The position numbers and the translations under genes are program-made. A DNA stretch of 64,000 nucleotides from Roseinatronobacter alkalisoli (GTDB taxonomy: Bacteria > Pseudomonadota > Alphaproteobacteria > Rhodobacterales > Rhodobacteraceae): assembly GCF_028745735.1 (NCBI RefSeq), contig NZ_JAQZSM010000008.1:62001-126000 (forward strand), read 5' to 3'. Shown here piece by piece: positions 38,431 through 44,602 of this stretch. Each line of letters begins with the position of its first letter. The stretch's first letter is position 1. The notes under the pieces were generated by a model. The model saw only the letters and a list, made by a program, of their open reading frames with translations, made no database searches and was not told the origin of the DNA.

Positions 38431-39144
38431 TCAGATATCGACCAGTGCTTCAAACCCGCCAATGATCATGCGCTTGCCATCGAAGGGCATCTGCATATTG
38501 GCGAACCGTTCATCCTGCATCATGCGGCGCGATCCTTCATCGCGGGTGGCTTTGTCGGGCCATTGGGTCCAGCAGAACATCAGTACTTCACCCGGTTCAG
38601 CCTGCACGGCGCGGCGGAAATCCGTGGATGTGCCATCAGGAATATCAACGCCCCAGTTTTCCATGATCCATGTCGCGCCATATTCGATAAAGATCGGGTC
38701 GACTTCTTTCGCGAAGCTGCGGAATGCCTCGCGCCCGTCCTTGGGTATGGCACAGACGAAACCGTCAAAATACCCGCCCGGCTGCCGCGATCCCAGTTCA
38801 AGCAGTGGTTCAAACCCGCCATAGATGACACGCTTGCCGTCAAAGGGCATGGGGTTGGTATCCATGCTCAGGCGCGGGTCGTTGATGGCGTCTTTCATGG
38901 CGGCGTCGTGAATTTCCTTTGATGGCCACAGATACCACGCAAAGACCACGGTTTCATCAGGCTGCGCCTTCACTGCCATCGGAAAGGATGTCAGCTTGCC
39001 TTCGGGGACGTCATCGCCCCAGCATTCTGCGCCATGCAGCATGCCATAGGCCTGAAACCCTTCCATTGCCTTTTGGGCATGGGTGCGGAACGCGTCGCGG
39101 TTTTTGGTTGGGACCGCAGCGACAAAGCCTTGGACATAGGTCAT
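38431..39144 (-). CDS. Tandem DUF1428 protein (two fused copies of the domain)
   Basis: Protein of 237 residues made of two DUF1428 units of about 118 residues each. DUF1428 is a small alpha-beta dimeric (ferredoxin-like) fold of unknown function, normally one copy per chain. Unit 1 starts MTYVQGFVAAVPTKNRDAFRTHA and ends MPFDGKRVIYGGFEPLLEL. Unit 2 starts YFDGFVCAIPKDGREAFRSFA and ends MPFDGKRMIIGGFEALVDI. The matched landmarks WGDDVP.G/WGVDIPDG and AWYLWPSKE/CWTQWPDKA confirm the duplication. The fusion would let a dimer form within one chain. AGGAGG lies ideally before ATG 39144, and a palindromic operator-like site lies about 100 bases upstream. Confidence 0.85.
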   Translation of the reverse strand: MTYVQGFVAAVPTKNRDAFRTHAQKAMEGFQAYGMLHGAECWGDDVPEGKLTSFPMAVKAQPDETVVFAWYLWPSKEIHDAAMKDAINDPRLSMDTNPMPFDGKRVIYGGFEPLLELGSRQPGGYFDGFVCAIPKDGREAFRSFAKEVDPIFIEYGATWIMENWGVDIPDGTSTDFRRAVQAEPGEVLMFCWTQWPDKATRDEGSRRMMQDERFANMQMPFDGKRMIIGGFEALVDI

Positions 39145-39239
39145 TTCAATCCTCCTGTTTGCGAATAGCCGGGGCCGGGCGGGTGGTTCTGCGCATCGGC
39201 CCCTCGCGTTGGAATCGGTGTGTAGATCTGTGTAACAAT

Positions 39240-39263
39240 AAAAACTTGTATATACAAGTTTTT
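39240..39263. promoter_or_regulatory. 24-base perfect palindrome, GntR/HutC-type operator candidate
   Basis: The site is a perfect inverted repeat centred on CTTGTATATACAAG, flanked by A5 and T5. Its GT-N4-AC core fits what is known of HutC-subfamily GntR operators. It lies 96-119 bases upstream of the DUF1428 start and 80 bases past the patatin gene stop, so it could be an operator for the former or a terminator for the latter (hairpin plus T-run on either strand). Confidence 0.5.
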
Positions 39264-39342
39264 GGTGCGCGGATGGCTGACGTAACCGCAAGGGGCGTAT
39301 TCAACCAGCCTTGCGCTTTCACCCTATATGTAAATGCATTCC

Positions 39343-40461
39343 CTAGACCGGATGTACCGGCAGTGGCAGCGCGGTGGGTGCCGGGGCGTTTCTTGCCTGC
39401 GGCAGGTAGGACCGCGCCAGCACATCCATGGAGAGCCAGCCCCAGTTGATCAGATTATCCTGTTCTGCGACTGAAAAACGGTTCAGCCGCGTCCGGATTC
39501 CGGCCAGATGCGCGATCATCTCCGCAGAGAACGCGATTTTCTGTTCTGCCGGGCGGTCCGCGATGCCACAGTCGATCTGGGAAATCGCAAAAGCGCGCCC
39601 CTCACTCACGCATGCGGTATACAGCAATCGCCGCCGCAGGCTTCGGGCCTGATCCGTGCTGATCGACAGAATTCTGGACAATTGCTTCGGCCATAACCCG
39701 CTTGCGGTTTCCGTCACCGAGAATGGCTTGCCTGCGTCACTGACAATGACCGGATTGAAATCATCGACAGATTCAAGGGCCATATTGTCATAGGCCCCCC
39801 CATCTGTCAGGCGCAATTCGCGCTTGTAATTGTTGTCGCTGAAATGGCTGGCGCCTGTCAGATTGGTCCAGGCCGATGGTTTCAACTTGATTCGTACCGG
39901 TGAAAGAACCGGCGGGAACGCACTGGATGCCGCGACCACAGTGCTTAACGGAAGGTCAGGATTGAAGATGCAGCCGATCATGTAATCAGCCATGTAGCGT
40001 TTCTGAAACCGCACTGCCCTGCCGGTTTGCAGGTTGGTGGCCTTGAAAACAAAATCCGGCGCATCAGGCAGGTCTTGCAATGTCCGCTTATCCAGCAGGG
40101 TTTCATAGGCCTTTGCCAGCCGCGCCCCCGCAGAGGTGAAAGGATTCAATGCGCCGATGACGCCGGCGGAAATGTCAATGCCGCGGCTGCAGAAATTGCG
40201 CAGCGGGGCAATGACGTGGCTGTCAAGGTTGGTGAACCGGTCGTTCACCAGTGTCATGTCATCCCATGCTATCGCGAGCCTGGCCGCCGTGATCGATCCG
40301 CCCGAAACAGCAGCGATACGCCCCATCTGCGCCAGCAACCCCAGTTCATTCAGGCGTATCAAGGCCCCGCAATGATACAGGGTCGCGCGAAACCCACCGC
40401 CCGACAGGGCAAGCGCAGGCGCGTTGCGATCTGTGGTTCGTTCAAGTTCTACAGGGTCCAT
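39343..40461 (-). CDS. Patatin-like phospholipase
   Basis: Predicted lipid acyl hydrolase of 372 residues with the Ser-Asp catalytic dyad of patatins. The glycine-rich oxyanion-hole motif is LALSGGGFRATLYHCGAL (residues 18-34). The nucleophile elbow is AAVSGGSI with Ser53 (first Gly of GxSxG replaced by Ala), and the catalytic Asp220 sits in LRLTDGGAYDNMALE. VVAASSAFPPVLSPV matches the usual ASSA.P..F.PV block before the Asp. No signal peptide is seen, so it should be cytosolic and could attack the cell's own membranes if activated. AAGGAG precedes ATG 40461. Third gene of a minus-strand set with an MBL-fold hydrolase (45 bases upstream) and a metallopeptidase. Confidence 0.88.
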   Translation of the reverse strand: MDPVELERTTDRNAPALALSGGGFRATLYHCGALIRLNELGLLAQMGRIAAVSGGSITAARLAIAWDDMTLVNDRFTNLDSHVIAPLRNFCSRGIDISAGVIGALNPFTSAGARLAKAYETLLDKRTLQDLPDAPDFVFKATNLQTGRAVRFQKRYMADYMIGCIFNPDLPLSTVVAASSAFPPVLSPVRIKLKPSAWTNLTGASHFSDNNYKRELRLTDGGAYDNMALESVDDFNPVIVSDAGKPFSVTETASGLWPKQLSRILSISTDQARSLRRRLLYTACVSEGRAFAISQIDCGIADRPAEQKIAFSAEMIAHLAGIRTRLNRFSVAEQDNLINWGWLSMDVLARSYLPQARNAPAPTALPLPVHPV

Positions 40462-40506
40462 TCCCGTCTCCTTTGAAAATGTGCCCCTTGCTGGCCGGAA
40501 GGGGTA

Positions 40507-42054
40507 TCAGGAATCGTTTATCGTCAGTTCAAAATACAGCCTGTCGGTGCGCAAGCGGCGCTGGAAATGCTGCCATTGGTCCTTGCGGGTCTCTGGCGGG
40601 GCGGATGTCGGTGGTGTCAGATCACTGCGCAGCACCCGGCCTTCCGCCTTGCGGTGCAGGGCCGCTTCGATCTGCGGCATCGGGTGCGCCCATGGCCGCG
40701 CCTTGCCCATGGCCCAGGCGGTATTGGCAGGTATCATCGCCACGAATTCGCGGGCGGCGTCGCCCTGCGCCATCCAGCCAAGATTTGCATGGGCATCATC
40801 GGGTCGCCCGTTCAGGGTTGCGTTATGCGAACCATGATGCCCGACCTTGTATAACACACAATCGCGCAGCAGATCGCGCGCGGTCACCTGCCCGGAATCG
40901 GTTGTCCAGGCCAGATCGGACCAACCGATCCAGCTGCCACGCTGCGCATCGCCGGTGAACAGCAGGGTCTTGCCGGTTCCGGGCAGCCGGAAGGCAAGGA
41001 CAAGGCTGGTATTGTTGACTTCGTTGTTCAGGCGCAGTGCCATGGTGTCGGTGGGGTGCAGCCATTCATCATCAATCCGGCGCCAGGATTCATCCGCGTT
41101 GTCATAGACATCGCGGTAATACCCTTCGGGTGTCTTGCGGTCCGGGTTCGCGGCGAAAACACTGCCCGGTGCGATGCAATGGCGCGTGGCGAAGGGCGCA
41201 ATAGTCTGATCCGGGCCTGATGCGGGCATCAGGGCAATGGAGAGGCCCTGACCCGCGCCATCAAGGCCAAAGCCACCGCGATGCAGGTCAAACATCTCTG
41301 CCCCCTGGGGGTCAAGATCCAGCAGCAAGGCGGGGTCACGCGGCGGCCCGAGCGTGAAGACTTCAGACCGCGCCACGAAAGGCAGGGCGACGGGCGGGTT
41401 TTCTGGGCTCAGAAATACCACATCGTTCTTGGCCTTTTCACGCAGCCATGCAATTGCACGTTTATTGGTTATGCCCGCGACTGCCATTTCAGCCAGCGCA
41501 GCCGCACGGGCATGCGGGTGGGCCGCTTTGGCTTGTGTGAAGGCGTTGCGAAGCGCTGCGCAATCATCGCCGGTTTCAGTTTCCACCAGTTCCGCCATGC
41601 GTGACGCCTGGGCAGCAAGACCGGGATGCGCGCGCAGCCGCGCTTCGGCAAAGGCAAGAGTGATCAGCGTGTCGTTGAATCTTGCGCGCAGATCATTGGC
41701 AAGCGGATCGTCGCCATCCTCGGTCCAGGCCAGCCAGACCTGCCCGACCGTCAGGCGGTCAAACAGCCGCTTTCCTGCTGATCTGCGGGAAAACCCGTTC
41801 ACATGATCCTGATGTTCATGCGTGACAATGACAATGTCGATATGGCCACTGCATGCGCGAAAGATATCGTCGATGATGTCGTTAATACCGGCATCAACCT
41901 CTGATCCGTTTTTCAGGCCGCAATCGATCAGCACATAGACCGGGCGCGATTTTCGCCCGTCGCGCCCGGCGAAGGCCAGCAGGAAACAATCGCCATGTCC
42001 GTGACGGTACATGCGGATTTTCACACCGGAACGGGGCGGGGCCATGCGTGCCAT
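40507..42054 (-). CDS. MBL-fold hydrolase, ComEC/Rec2-like
   Basis: Metallo-beta-lactamase-fold hydrolase of 515 residues, predicted cytosolic. The N-terminal strands (VKIRMYRHGHGDCFLLAF...VYVLIDCG) lead to the metal motif THEHQDH (His79, His81, Asp83, His84). Further ligands are likely in LLFTGDAQRG and in LYKVGHHGSHNATLNG, the KVGHHGS motif typical of ComEC/Rec2-type MBL domains, which includes nucleases. Between residues 100 and 330 is a large insertion without recognised similarity. Substrate unknown; a nuclease or phosphodiesterase is possible. The ATG at 42054 shares its A with the TGA of the metallopeptidase gene (TGATG), so the two are translationally coupled. Confidence 0.85.
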   Translation of the reverse strand: MARMAPPRSGVKIRMYRHGHGDCFLLAFAGRDGRKSRPVYVLIDCGLKNGSEVDAGINDIIDDIFRACSGHIDIVIVTHEHQDHVNGFSRRSAGKRLFDRLTVGQVWLAWTEDGDDPLANDLRARFNDTLITLAFAEARLRAHPGLAAQASRMAELVETETGDDCAALRNAFTQAKAAHPHARAAALAEMAVAGITNKRAIAWLREKAKNDVVFLSPENPPVALPFVARSEVFTLGPPRDPALLLDLDPQGAEMFDLHRGGFGLDGAGQGLSIALMPASGPDQTIAPFATRHCIAPGSVFAANPDRKTPEGYYRDVYDNADESWRRIDDEWLHPTDTMALRLNNEVNNTSLVLAFRLPGTGKTLLFTGDAQRGSWIGWSDLAWTTDSGQVTARDLLRDCVLYKVGHHGSHNATLNGRPDDAHANLGWMAQGDAAREFVAMIPANTAWAMGKARPWAHPMPQIEAALHRKAEGRVLRSDLTPPTSAPPETRKDQWQHFQRRLRTDRLYFELTINDS

Positions 42055-44243
42055 CAATGCCCCCCGAAATGAAACTGGCCATGATGAACATGGCGGTGCA
42101 GCGCCGCGAAACTGGTGTCGCTGGCCGTTTCGGGCGCATCAAACGCATTCATCGGGGTGCCGCGTGCTGCGGCATAATAGGCGCGCACCTGTTCCAGACC
42201 CGCGTTTTCGTCAATGCGGCAGGGTGTGCAGATCACCCGGCGTATCCGGAAACTGCGCGTGTCGATCAGCAGGGTGCAGCCGGTGCGATAGGTGAAGTCG
42301 CGCTGCAATGTCTGGCGTTGCAGAAATGGGTTTTTCGCGTTCCACAGTGCCAATGCTTCGGCCTTTTGTCCGCTATCGGCCAGTTCCTGCACTGCGTGGT
42401 CCAGATAACCGTCCCGCGACTGAACCAGTTCCACCACATATTCGCGTTCAAAATGGCCCCGGTTGCCCAGACGGCTGGCAACGCGGACGGAACGCACCCG
42501 CATCGCGGGAAGGCCGTTTATGCCCGATCGCCGGATGGTTTGCGGCGCGTCATGGTCCATGCAGATGCCGATGGTCCGCAACAGGGCCGGTGGCTGCTTG
42601 ACGACAATGCCCCAGAACAGGCGCGCGTAGAAGCGGCGCGCGTGGTGGATAACCTCGCGCGGGGTGGTGAATTCAAGTTCCAGCAGGTTTTGTTGAAGCA
42701 GTCCTTCTTTCGACAATTCGTCGGCGCGATCCTCGTTGCCTGTCGCTTTCAGGCGCTCACGCAGGGCGTTGTTCATACTGTTCAGCAATGCATTCTTGTC
42801 AGCTTCAAGCAAGCTGATCAGGCCAGGCTCAGCCCCGTCGGGTTCGGGGTGTTCTGCGCGCAATTCGACCAGCAGGCGATCAGGACGGGTGATCAGCACG
42901 CCAAATCTGGCCTGAAGCGTATCATCTGCAGCCCCGATGTTACGGGCGGCGTGTTCGAATGATGGCCAGATCAGGCTGCCTTCGGACAGGACCGGCATGC
43001 CGTCCGGCACAATGCCCCATGCGGCAAAGGCTTCCAGAAATGCCGCGCGGTAGCCATGTGCGTCTTCGGGAAACAGGTCATGATCGGCGGTGATGACGGC
43101 GCGCAGATAATCGCCAAAGCTGACATTGACTGGCGGCACATAATCCATGGCCCGGATACAGATGTTCAGCATGTGGCGCGCAGACGTTGCAGCTTCATCC
43201 GCGAGTCGCTTTACAAGGTCCGGGTCCGGGCTTCCCGGTCGCAAGATTCCACTGCCGCCGGATGCAATGCGAAACAGATCCGCCACGCGCGTCCGGTAGA
43301 TATTCAGAAAAGCCCGAAAAACGGCAGCTACCAGAATGGCCCCGCGGGCATGCGGTCCGCGAGCATTGCGCAGCGCGGTATTGTCCGGCACATGGGGTTG
43401 CCATTCGCCGTCCACATACCCCCCGATCGCATCCCGCAGGGCACCGCTGCGCCCCAGCCCCTGACCGAATTCCTGCGCAAGCGCGCCGAGCAAACTTTGG
43501 CGTTCAAGATCCCCGCCTGTGCGCCCGATCTGGTCTTGCAGCACCCCGGCATGTGAAAAATGCTGGAAAATGGCAACAATGTCGGAAAACGCCTCATGCA
43601 GGGCAAGCATGTCGGGGTTTGACGGTTCAACGAAATGCGGGTGCATCCCGTCAAGGATTGCATGGCACATTTCATGCACGATGATGTCCTGCGACAGACA
43701 GGTGAACATCACTGTTCCCGGCGGTGCGGCGCGGCTTTGTGCATCAAGCTGGAAATACCCGAAAAGCACCGCCTTGCGGGCCGGGTCGTAATAGGCATTC
43801 GCTTCGCGCAGGGCGTGCGGATATAGCCGCAGCCTGGGGACATAGCTGTCCTTCTGCGGTGCGTCGGCTTTGCGCGGGGACCAAAGCACATAGCGCCCAA
43901 GCGCGCGTTCAAAATTGCCGATGGTTTCCATCGCAACCGCGTAGACCATCTGCTGATGGAATCGCGGATCATCCGCTGCTGGCGTCAGCCCGTCATTGAA
44001 CAGCACTTCCGGGGAATTCAGGTCAATGGGCTGGTAGAACCGGCCAGATGCCGAATCGAAATCAACCACCTCAATATATTCCCCCGATGGCCCGAAGCAC
44101 GGGGATTTGCGATCAATCGGGTCCAGCTCGGACGGGATTGACAGCGTGACTTCACGGATATTGCGGTTTCCCGGGCGGATCGCGGTCCAGGGATCAAATG
44201 CGAAAATACGCAGGCGGCGTGGTGGTTCAAAACCGTTGGGCAT
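42054..44243 (-). CDS. Zinc metallopeptidase-like protein with M4-type HExxH...HEAFSD motifs
   Basis: Protein of 729 residues. The zinc site is HEMCH (His190, Glu191, His194), followed 22 residues later by ALHEAFSDIVA with Glu217 as probable third ligand. That copies the thermolysin-family (M4) arrangement HExxH...NEAxSD. There is no signal peptide or propeptide, unlike typical secreted M4 enzymes, so it may act in the cytoplasm. The rest (residues 300-729) is rich in helix, with no domain I recognise; it contains PREVIHHARRFYARLFWGIVV and a C-terminal His-rich end (HRHVHHGQFHFGGH). I start at ATG 44243. The frame is open to 44393, but that stretch lacks protein-like character. First gene of the three-gene operon with MBL hydrolase and patatin. 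Substrate unknown. Confidence 0.72.
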   Translation of the reverse strand: MPNGFEPPRRLRIFAFDPWTAIRPGNRNIREVTLSIPSELDPIDRKSPCFGPSGEYIEVVDFDSASGRFYQPIDLNSPEVLFNDGLTPAADDPRFHQQMVYAVAMETIGNFERALGRYVLWSPRKADAPQKDSYVPRLRLYPHALREANAYYDPARKAVLFGYFQLDAQSRAAPPGTVMFTCLSQDIIVHEMCHAILDGMHPHFVEPSNPDMLALHEAFSDIVAIFQHFSHAGVLQDQIGRTGGDLERQSLLGALAQEFGQGLGRSGALRDAIGGYVDGEWQPHVPDNTALRNARGPHARGAILVAAVFRAFLNIYRTRVADLFRIASGGSGILRPGSPDPDLVKRLADEAATSARHMLNICIRAMDYVPPVNVSFGDYLRAVITADHDLFPEDAHGYRAAFLEAFAAWGIVPDGMPVLSEGSLIWPSFEHAARNIGAADDTLQARFGVLITRPDRLLVELRAEHPEPDGAEPGLISLLEADKNALLNSMNNALRERLKATGNEDRADELSKEGLLQQNLLELEFTTPREVIHHARRFYARLFWGIVVKQPPALLRTIGICMDHDAPQTIRRSGINGLPAMRVRSVRVASRLGNRGHFEREYVVELVQSRDGYLDHAVQELADSGQKAEALALWNAKNPFLQRQTLQRDFTYRTGCTLLIDTRSFRIRRVICTPCRIDENAGLEQVRAYYAAARGTPMNAFDAPETASDTSFAALHRHVHHGQFHFGGH

Positions 44244-44602
44244 AAGGTTTACATCCGGAAAGCATGCGCAAAGCATAGCAGAACGCCCAAGGCTTGTCTG
44301 CATGTTGCCCGATATCGCGCAGCGCATCGTGGGTCTGGCCGCGACAGGGGCGCATGATGCCCAGGCCCGTGGTTCTGACCGGATGATCGGCAATTCAGCC
44401 GCGCGGTTTCACAACCAGATGAGGCAGGAACACGGGAATGACGCGGCCGCCTGACGGGGAAAGTGATTCATTCTGAATCTGTTTGGTCCGTCCCTGTGGC
44501 AATCCCCCGGCTTGCCGGATGGCCAAAGCTTATCTAAGGTTGTCGTAAAGCGCCCGCCACCGCAAAGTCCAGTACGCAAGCCAATTCAGGGATACATGCA
44601 GC
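44244..44602. promoter_or_regulatory. Divergent intergenic region upstream of the metallopeptidase operon
   Basis: This 359-base gap lies between the metallopeptidase operon (-) and the SnoaL-like gene (+) and must contain their promoters. Apart from a doubtful 50-codon ORF on the plus strand (44302-44454), I see no gene, strong hairpin or repeat in it. Confidence 0.5.
44302..44454 (+). CDS. Doubtful small ORF, 50 residues
   Basis: MLPDIAQRIVGLAATGAHDA... to ...EHGNDAAA, with codon choice that resembles local genes and AAGG about 9 bases before the ATG. It is divergent from the metallopeptidase gene. I recognise no family. It may be a small real gene, the remnant of a larger one, or chance. 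Confidence 0.22.
   Translation: MLPDIAQRIVGLAATGAHDAQARGSDRMIGNSAARFHNQMRQEHGNDAAA

Follow-up and report, generated by a model that had tools for sequence, protein, structure and literature searches.

Three described bacterial immune systems resemble in part a three-gene cassette found in a 64,000-nucleotide stretch of Roseinatronobacter alkalisoli DNA (contig NZ_JAQZSM010000008.1, positions 62,001 to 126,000; hereafter, the window). Lamassu is a system with exchangeable effectors. Avs1, the type 1 AVAST system, includes a protease part. In the cyclic oligonucleotide-based antiphage signalling system (CBASS), phospholipase effectors are found, and its patatin attacks the membrane. The cassette of the window encodes a peptidase (PEP), a metallo-beta-lactamase-fold hydrolase (MBL) and a patatin-like phospholipase (PAT), arranged as follows:

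42054..44243, minus strand: PEP, gluzincin zinc peptidase, 729 aa (from the ATG at 44243 to the stop, the last base of which is 42054)
40507..42054, minus strand: MBL, hydrolase with a metallo-beta-lactamase fold of the ComEC-domain type and large inserts, 515 aa
40462..40506, minus strand: gap of 45 bases between MBL and PAT with the AAAGGAG ribosome-binding site, read directly from the sequence
39343..40461, minus strand: PAT, patatin-like phospholipase, the exchangeable third gene, 372 aa (Pfam Patatin 2.9e-18, Ser53/Asp220, SGGGFRA)

Among the PADLOC models, MBL is most similar to LmuA of Lamassu (4.5e-16), followed by a DRT-associated MBL (5.3e-7), PDC-M48B (6.7e-6) and Avs1a (3.8e-4), with the best stretch of the LmuA match spanning residues 11-109 only. 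However, no LmuB-type SMC ATPase was found in the trio or in the 10 window neighbours scanned, and in the cassette the MBL stays constant while the lipase varies. The likeness to AVAST type 1 consists of a weak match of MBL to Avs1a (NCBIfam, 2e-7), which at 30.1 bits misses the cut-off of 420, and the trio contains no STAND NTPase. PAT weakly matches the PADLOC model of a CBASS phospholipase effector (5.3e-4), but models of a cyclase found nothing in the trio or among the 10 window neighbours. The cassette cannot be classified as Lamassu, Avs1 or CBASS, each assignment failing for want of a defining partner or of a score above the cut-off. Searches of an open-access library, a scope outside which subscription papers and preprints lie, gave no title describing the combination of PEP, MBL and lipase, so that its absence from print is unproven; passages of PMC12419801 do not describe the combination either.

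PEP was searched for in 84,980 species genomes, which yielded 500 candidate stretches, 480 of them relatives. The best 80 of these 480 form set A, a non-random sample containing close pairs, which by record titles comprises Bacteroidota, Acidobacteria, Planctomycetota, Gemmatimonadota and Chloroflexi as well as proteobacteria. Set B includes 14 of 63 plasmid records, hand-picked from among the 29 top-ranking rows (of the 63, only 5 span 80% of PEP in one place), and set C includes 27 further loci, many of them distant. Genes in the loci were counted using a home-made codon-usage gene caller. MBL is the next gene after PEP in 77/80 loci of set A, in 14/14 plasmid loci and in 23/27 loci of set C. 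The three exceptions in set A are an in-frame open reading frame (ORF) uniting PEP and MBL in L009 and contig ends in L024 and L076, while the four loci of set C lacking an adjoining MBL are possible misses of an MBL model trained on set A. In the window, re-reading of the DNA returned the arrangement given in the original prediction, namely three minus-strand genes at the coordinates listed above, with the TGA of PEP and the ATG of MBL overlapping by one A (TGATG) and with the patatin start 45 bases past the MBL stop, preceded by AAAGGAGACGGGA (AAAGGAG ribosome-binding site). This arrangement is not fortuitous, because it recurs in other genomes.

The third gene is variable. The pair is flanked by a patatin in 28/80 loci of set A and by a Tle1-like lipase (PF09994/DUF2235, an assignment checked with Pfam in two members) in 8/80. 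The flanks of the 14 plasmid loci contain five patatins, four Tle1-like lipases and one protein annotated as phospholipase D-like, and a patatin is present in 6/27 loci of set C. Thus, one of these lipases lies immediately beside the pair in 36/80, 10/14 and 6/27 loci of the three sets, respectively; set A without L005, L009, L020 and L070 comprises 26 loci with patatin, 6 with a Tle1-like lipase and 44 with none (n=76). Lipase hidden Markov models (HMMs) matched 33/136 flank genes of the 68 set A loci with both flanks visible and 0/464 genes of 32 regions taken from these genomes as controls (p 2e-23). As the HMMs were built from the very loci analysed, they would miss lipases of other families in loci and controls alike. 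A patatin-specific operon as the conserved unit was rejected, the unit being the PEP-MBL pair. The earlier assumption that the trio belongs together holds in that a protease, an MBL and a lipase are joined, and has to be corrected in that patatin is one interchangeable partner of a conserved pair.

The exchange of lipases was traced on a tree of the peptidases of 120 relatives, obtained in one FastTree run, where 33/115 inner branches are weak and long-branch warnings apply; the tree lacks the PEP of the window but includes L002-L004 and L018, which are related to it. For the lipase loci in which both flanks can be seen (n=49), at least 9 changes of lipase family are required; for family and side combined, the minimum is 15 changes among 52 loci. 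The closest relatives of the window, L003 and L018, have a downstream patatin; in the sister clade, a Tle1-like lipase is encoded downstream in L005 and L006, past a second MBL gene, and no lipase is present in L007 and L017. Between PEP and MBL, the correlation of protein distances is r 0.71 (72 loci). In the 26 patatin loci, the correlation is 0.82 for PEP-MBL, 0.52 for MBL-PAT and 0.37 for PEP-PAT. The lipase changes, together with the tighter PEP-MBL correlation, agree with a constant core whose effector is exchanged.

PEP contains the motifs HEMCH and HEAFSD, and residues H190, E191, H194, E217 and D221 are invariant in 62 aligned members. It combines a predicted thermolysin-like fold with HExxH and Glu as the third zinc ligand. 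According to the modelled fold, aligned over residues ~9-423, M36 fungalysins are the nearest structures and M4 peptidases come second, a change from the former description of PEP as M4-like. Unlike M36 fungalysin and M4 thermolysin-type peptidases, PEP has no signal peptide that could be seen (by crude hydropathy only), apparently no space for a propeptide ahead of the aligned fold, which starts by residue 9, an extra C-terminal region (~430-729) outside the M36/M4 fold, and a nearly obligate MBL neighbour. Judging by the lack of a visible signal peptide or propeptide, PEP is probably located in the cytosol. The N termini of MBL and PAT are likewise devoid of a hydrophobic stretch by the same measure, in agreement with the original prediction for all three window proteins. 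The PEP of the window has no match in Pfam, no name from NCBIfam and no PADLOC model, and sequences of its family mostly lie under Pfam detection. Some peptidases are fused behind an S8 subtilase domain. The fusion was checked with Pfam in L063:6171-9824 and L048:326-3820 (a second copy) only, and the plasmid copies L193, L231 and L232 are annotated as 'S8 family serine peptidase'. ORFs of >1100 aa were found in L057, L182, L183, L193, L231, L232, L256, L258, L260, L262, L263, L264 and L267, those other than the annotated ones being candidates by length.

In MBL, the motifs THEHQDH and KVGHHGS are present, and residues H79, H81, D83, H84, D369, H406 and H407 are invariant (57/57 aligned members). 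The HxHxDH motif with distal Asp and His ligands is characteristic of the MBL fold, to which the protein is also assigned by fold modelling; the Pfam match, Lactamase_B_2, is sub-threshold. Compared with the ComEC MBL domain, ~260/515 residues of MBL remain unaligned, and a hydrophobic membrane segment is lacking by crude hydropathy. MBL is predicted to be a ComEC-like phosphodiesterase or nuclease that may act on nucleic acid or nucleotide. A second, distinct MBL-like protein of ~440 aa is encoded downstream of MBL in L005, L006 and L007 and also near L015, L188 and L259; its L006 copy has no match in Pfam.

PAT possesses the oxyanion glycines and the Ser/Asp dyad of patatins and is a putative lipase. 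In an alignment of 41 patatins from loci that carry one, the window among them, position 53 is occupied by Ser in 38 and position 220 by Asp in 40. Gly replaces Asp in L027, and the other deviating rows come from gene calls that are short or from divergent patatins that misaligned. The GFSRG motif is present in 11/12 Tle1-like proteins, the 12th being truncated by a contig end. The claim of intact active-site motifs in all three enzymes is consistent with these alignments, where the ligands of PEP and MBL are invariant and the Ser and Asp of patatin are mostly kept.

The distribution of the cassette is patchy, and the cassette moves as a unit. PEP was found in 4/37 genomes of the genus (2/24 counting good assemblies only), in 23/397 genomes of the order of Mesorhizobium, centre genome included, and in 13/398 genomes of a phylum sample, with E < 1e-80 in 6 of the 13. 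Strong matches to MBL occur in 4/198 genomes of the family, and six further matches are weak. The DNA similarity between the window and the locus of the sister genome G205 is confined to 39417-44271, which is the trio itself. Genomes G224 and G229 have the most similar flanks, and PEP is absent from both; their right flank is colinear up to 44501, and the left-flank genes of G229 are located elsewhere. Patchiness between close relatives, as had been anticipated, was thereby observed, and the cassette proved to be neither a solitary arrangement nor a universally inherited one, since the pair linkage recurs, PEP is restricted to 4/37 genomes and the similarity to G205 is limited to the trio. The 63 plasmid records with a PEP relative include 35 typed as conjugative, 26 as non-mobilizable and 2 as mobilizable; most of the loci from the PEP scan lie on contigs without 'plasmid' in the title. 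Carriage as phage-borne cargo was rejected, as only 2/50,697 phage records gave matches, both partial, and a scan of viral contigs gave 1 relative among 18 candidate stretches. The trio with the DUF1428 gene (window 38431-44501) coincides with a point of rearrangement: pheT, DUF1428 and the right flank are scattered over three places in G229, with DUF1428 on another contig.

A conserved enzymatic core with interchangeable lipases and a patchy, mobile distribution is best fitted by a conflict or defence module. The observations underlying such a module are the linkage, catalytic residues, predicted folds, co-evolution of the core, swapping of lipases, patchiness and plasmid carriage. We give an even chance to the cassette being a mobile conflict or defence module, the protease-MBL core of which controls interchangeable lipid-attacking effectors. 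A broader proposal, which we hold to be somewhat less probable than its opposite, is that the relatives constitute a widespread undescribed class of immune or conflict systems, where a lipase from at least three unrelated families is plugged into a fixed core made up of a fungalysin-like protease of the cytosol and an MBL of the ComEC-like type, and where membrane attack is linked to activation of the protease. The order of events proposed here draws on knowledge of the enzyme families. The core would sense a signal associated with infection or invasion, phage being the supposed target, and the protease would turn active and process or release the lipase or the MBL, in an order and on a substrate that are conjectural. 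The lipase, which is a patatin in the window and Tle1-like or phospholipase D-like in other loci, would then break membrane phospholipids, the MBL may cut nucleic acid or nucleotide, and the outcome would be a growth stop or the death of the infected cell.

Several results weigh against a defence module. No lipase directly adjoins the pair in 44/80 loci of set A (12 of the 80 have one flank out of sight), in 4/14 plasmid loci and in 21/27 loci of set C, so the pair may need no partner or may have different ones. Searches of the trio with Pfam, NCBIfam and PADLOC recognised no sensor or ATPase domain. Among the 10 window neighbours, none matched PADLOC at 1e-6; they are housekeeping genes and include those for phenylalanyl-tRNA synthetase beta, DUF1428, a SnoaL-like protein and an M17 aminopeptidase. 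Defence-named neighbours were counted in 5 or 6/14 plasmid loci, depending on ThiF in L233, and in 3/14 control stretches of the same plasmids (Shedu in one, SIR2 in two), a difference that is not significant (p 0.68 or 0.42). Ambiguous names left uncounted were AAA ATPase with Mov34, CHAT, UvrD/nuclease and MoxR in the loci, and toxin-antitoxin, Fic and S8 with ATPase in the controls. The neighbours of chromosomal copies matched 64 PADLOC models among 114 genes versus 5 among 113 controls, an inflated contrast to which one HerA protein alone contributed 14 of the 64 models; in the HerA follow-up scan, 2/10 neighbours matched PADLOC and 8 did not. Owing to this redundancy, the chromosomal contrast was not used as proof of an island.

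Some copies nevertheless have defence genes beside them. A CBASS cyclase adjoins two plasmid copies, and the neighbours of other plasmid copies include DUF1837 with a DEAD/DEAH helicase, presumably of the Hachiman type, two SIR2 genes, multiubiquitin/ThiF, and ThiF; no defence-like name occurs among the annotated neighbours of L188, L189, L229 and L231. The suggested location in defence islands is only weakly borne out, given the window neighbours and the non-significant plasmid contrast. The conflict module of the original prediction retains the support of linkage, patchiness, mobility and the protease-MBL-lipase make-up, with the pair in place of the trio as its unit and with phage defence, lipase activation by proteolysis and nuclease activity as putative traits.

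Among the other explanations, a phospholipid remodelling or stress module seems unlikely. Its lipase would deacylate a membrane or storage lipid, the MBL would cleave the phosphodiester head group produced, and the peptidase would remove damaged proteins, but the cassette is patchy within the genus (4/37) and occurs on plasmids, unrelated lipases are exchanged beside a co-evolving core, and some copies adjoin CBASS, SIR2 or DUF1837 genes. It is more doubtful still that the enzymes are the toxin payload of a contractile injection system or a type VI-like one, with lipases and peptidase injected into other cells. In L013 and L014, eCIS_core proteins (PF13699, by Pfam) are encoded directly upstream, and blastp relatives of the L014 protein were found in L019 and L020; two eCIS_core-type proteins have a transglutaminase-like match, one of them above the Pfam cut-off, and Pfam names Tle1-like lipases for effectors of the type VI secretion system (T6SS). 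However, such neighbours are present in 4/80 loci only, in a single clade of the tree, no injection apparatus was recognised among the 10 window neighbours, and the constant partner is the MBL. An addiction-like module maintaining a plasmid or another element, with the lipase as toxin and the protease-MBL pair as its keeper, is improbable: it would accord with plasmid carriage and with the tight coupling of genes (12/45 same-strand lipase gaps are overlaps), whereas most of the loci from the PEP scan are on contigs not titled plasmid, two large catalytic partners are atypical of an antitoxin, and a flanking lipase is absent in 44/80 loci. Chance neighbours with no functional link can be dismissed for practical purposes, this adjacency having been rejected in view of the pair linkage (77/80, 14/14 and 23/27) and the lipases in the flanks (33/136 versus 0/464).

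Should the cassette prove to be a defence system, its contribution would be a core of an M36/M4-fold protease and an MBL, the protease of the window having no Pfam or PADLOC match. Hundreds of relatives are present in public genomes (480/500 candidate stretches in one scan), and the exchange of unrelated lipases around one protease constitutes a natural experiment on the compatibility of effector and controller. Even if the function is metabolic, the peptidases form a large uncharacterised family with a nearly obligate partner.

Partners other than lipases were also observed, including the subtilase domain fused to the peptidase. An amidohydrolase-like protein occurs in four loci: an Amidohydro_2-like protein is encoded downstream of MBL in L038, L056, L064 and L069 (checked with Pfam in L056), the L038 copy being two genes further. 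A SLATT-like membrane protein is encoded directly upstream of the peptidase in two loci, L028 and L034, with a sub-threshold SLATT_2 match in L028.

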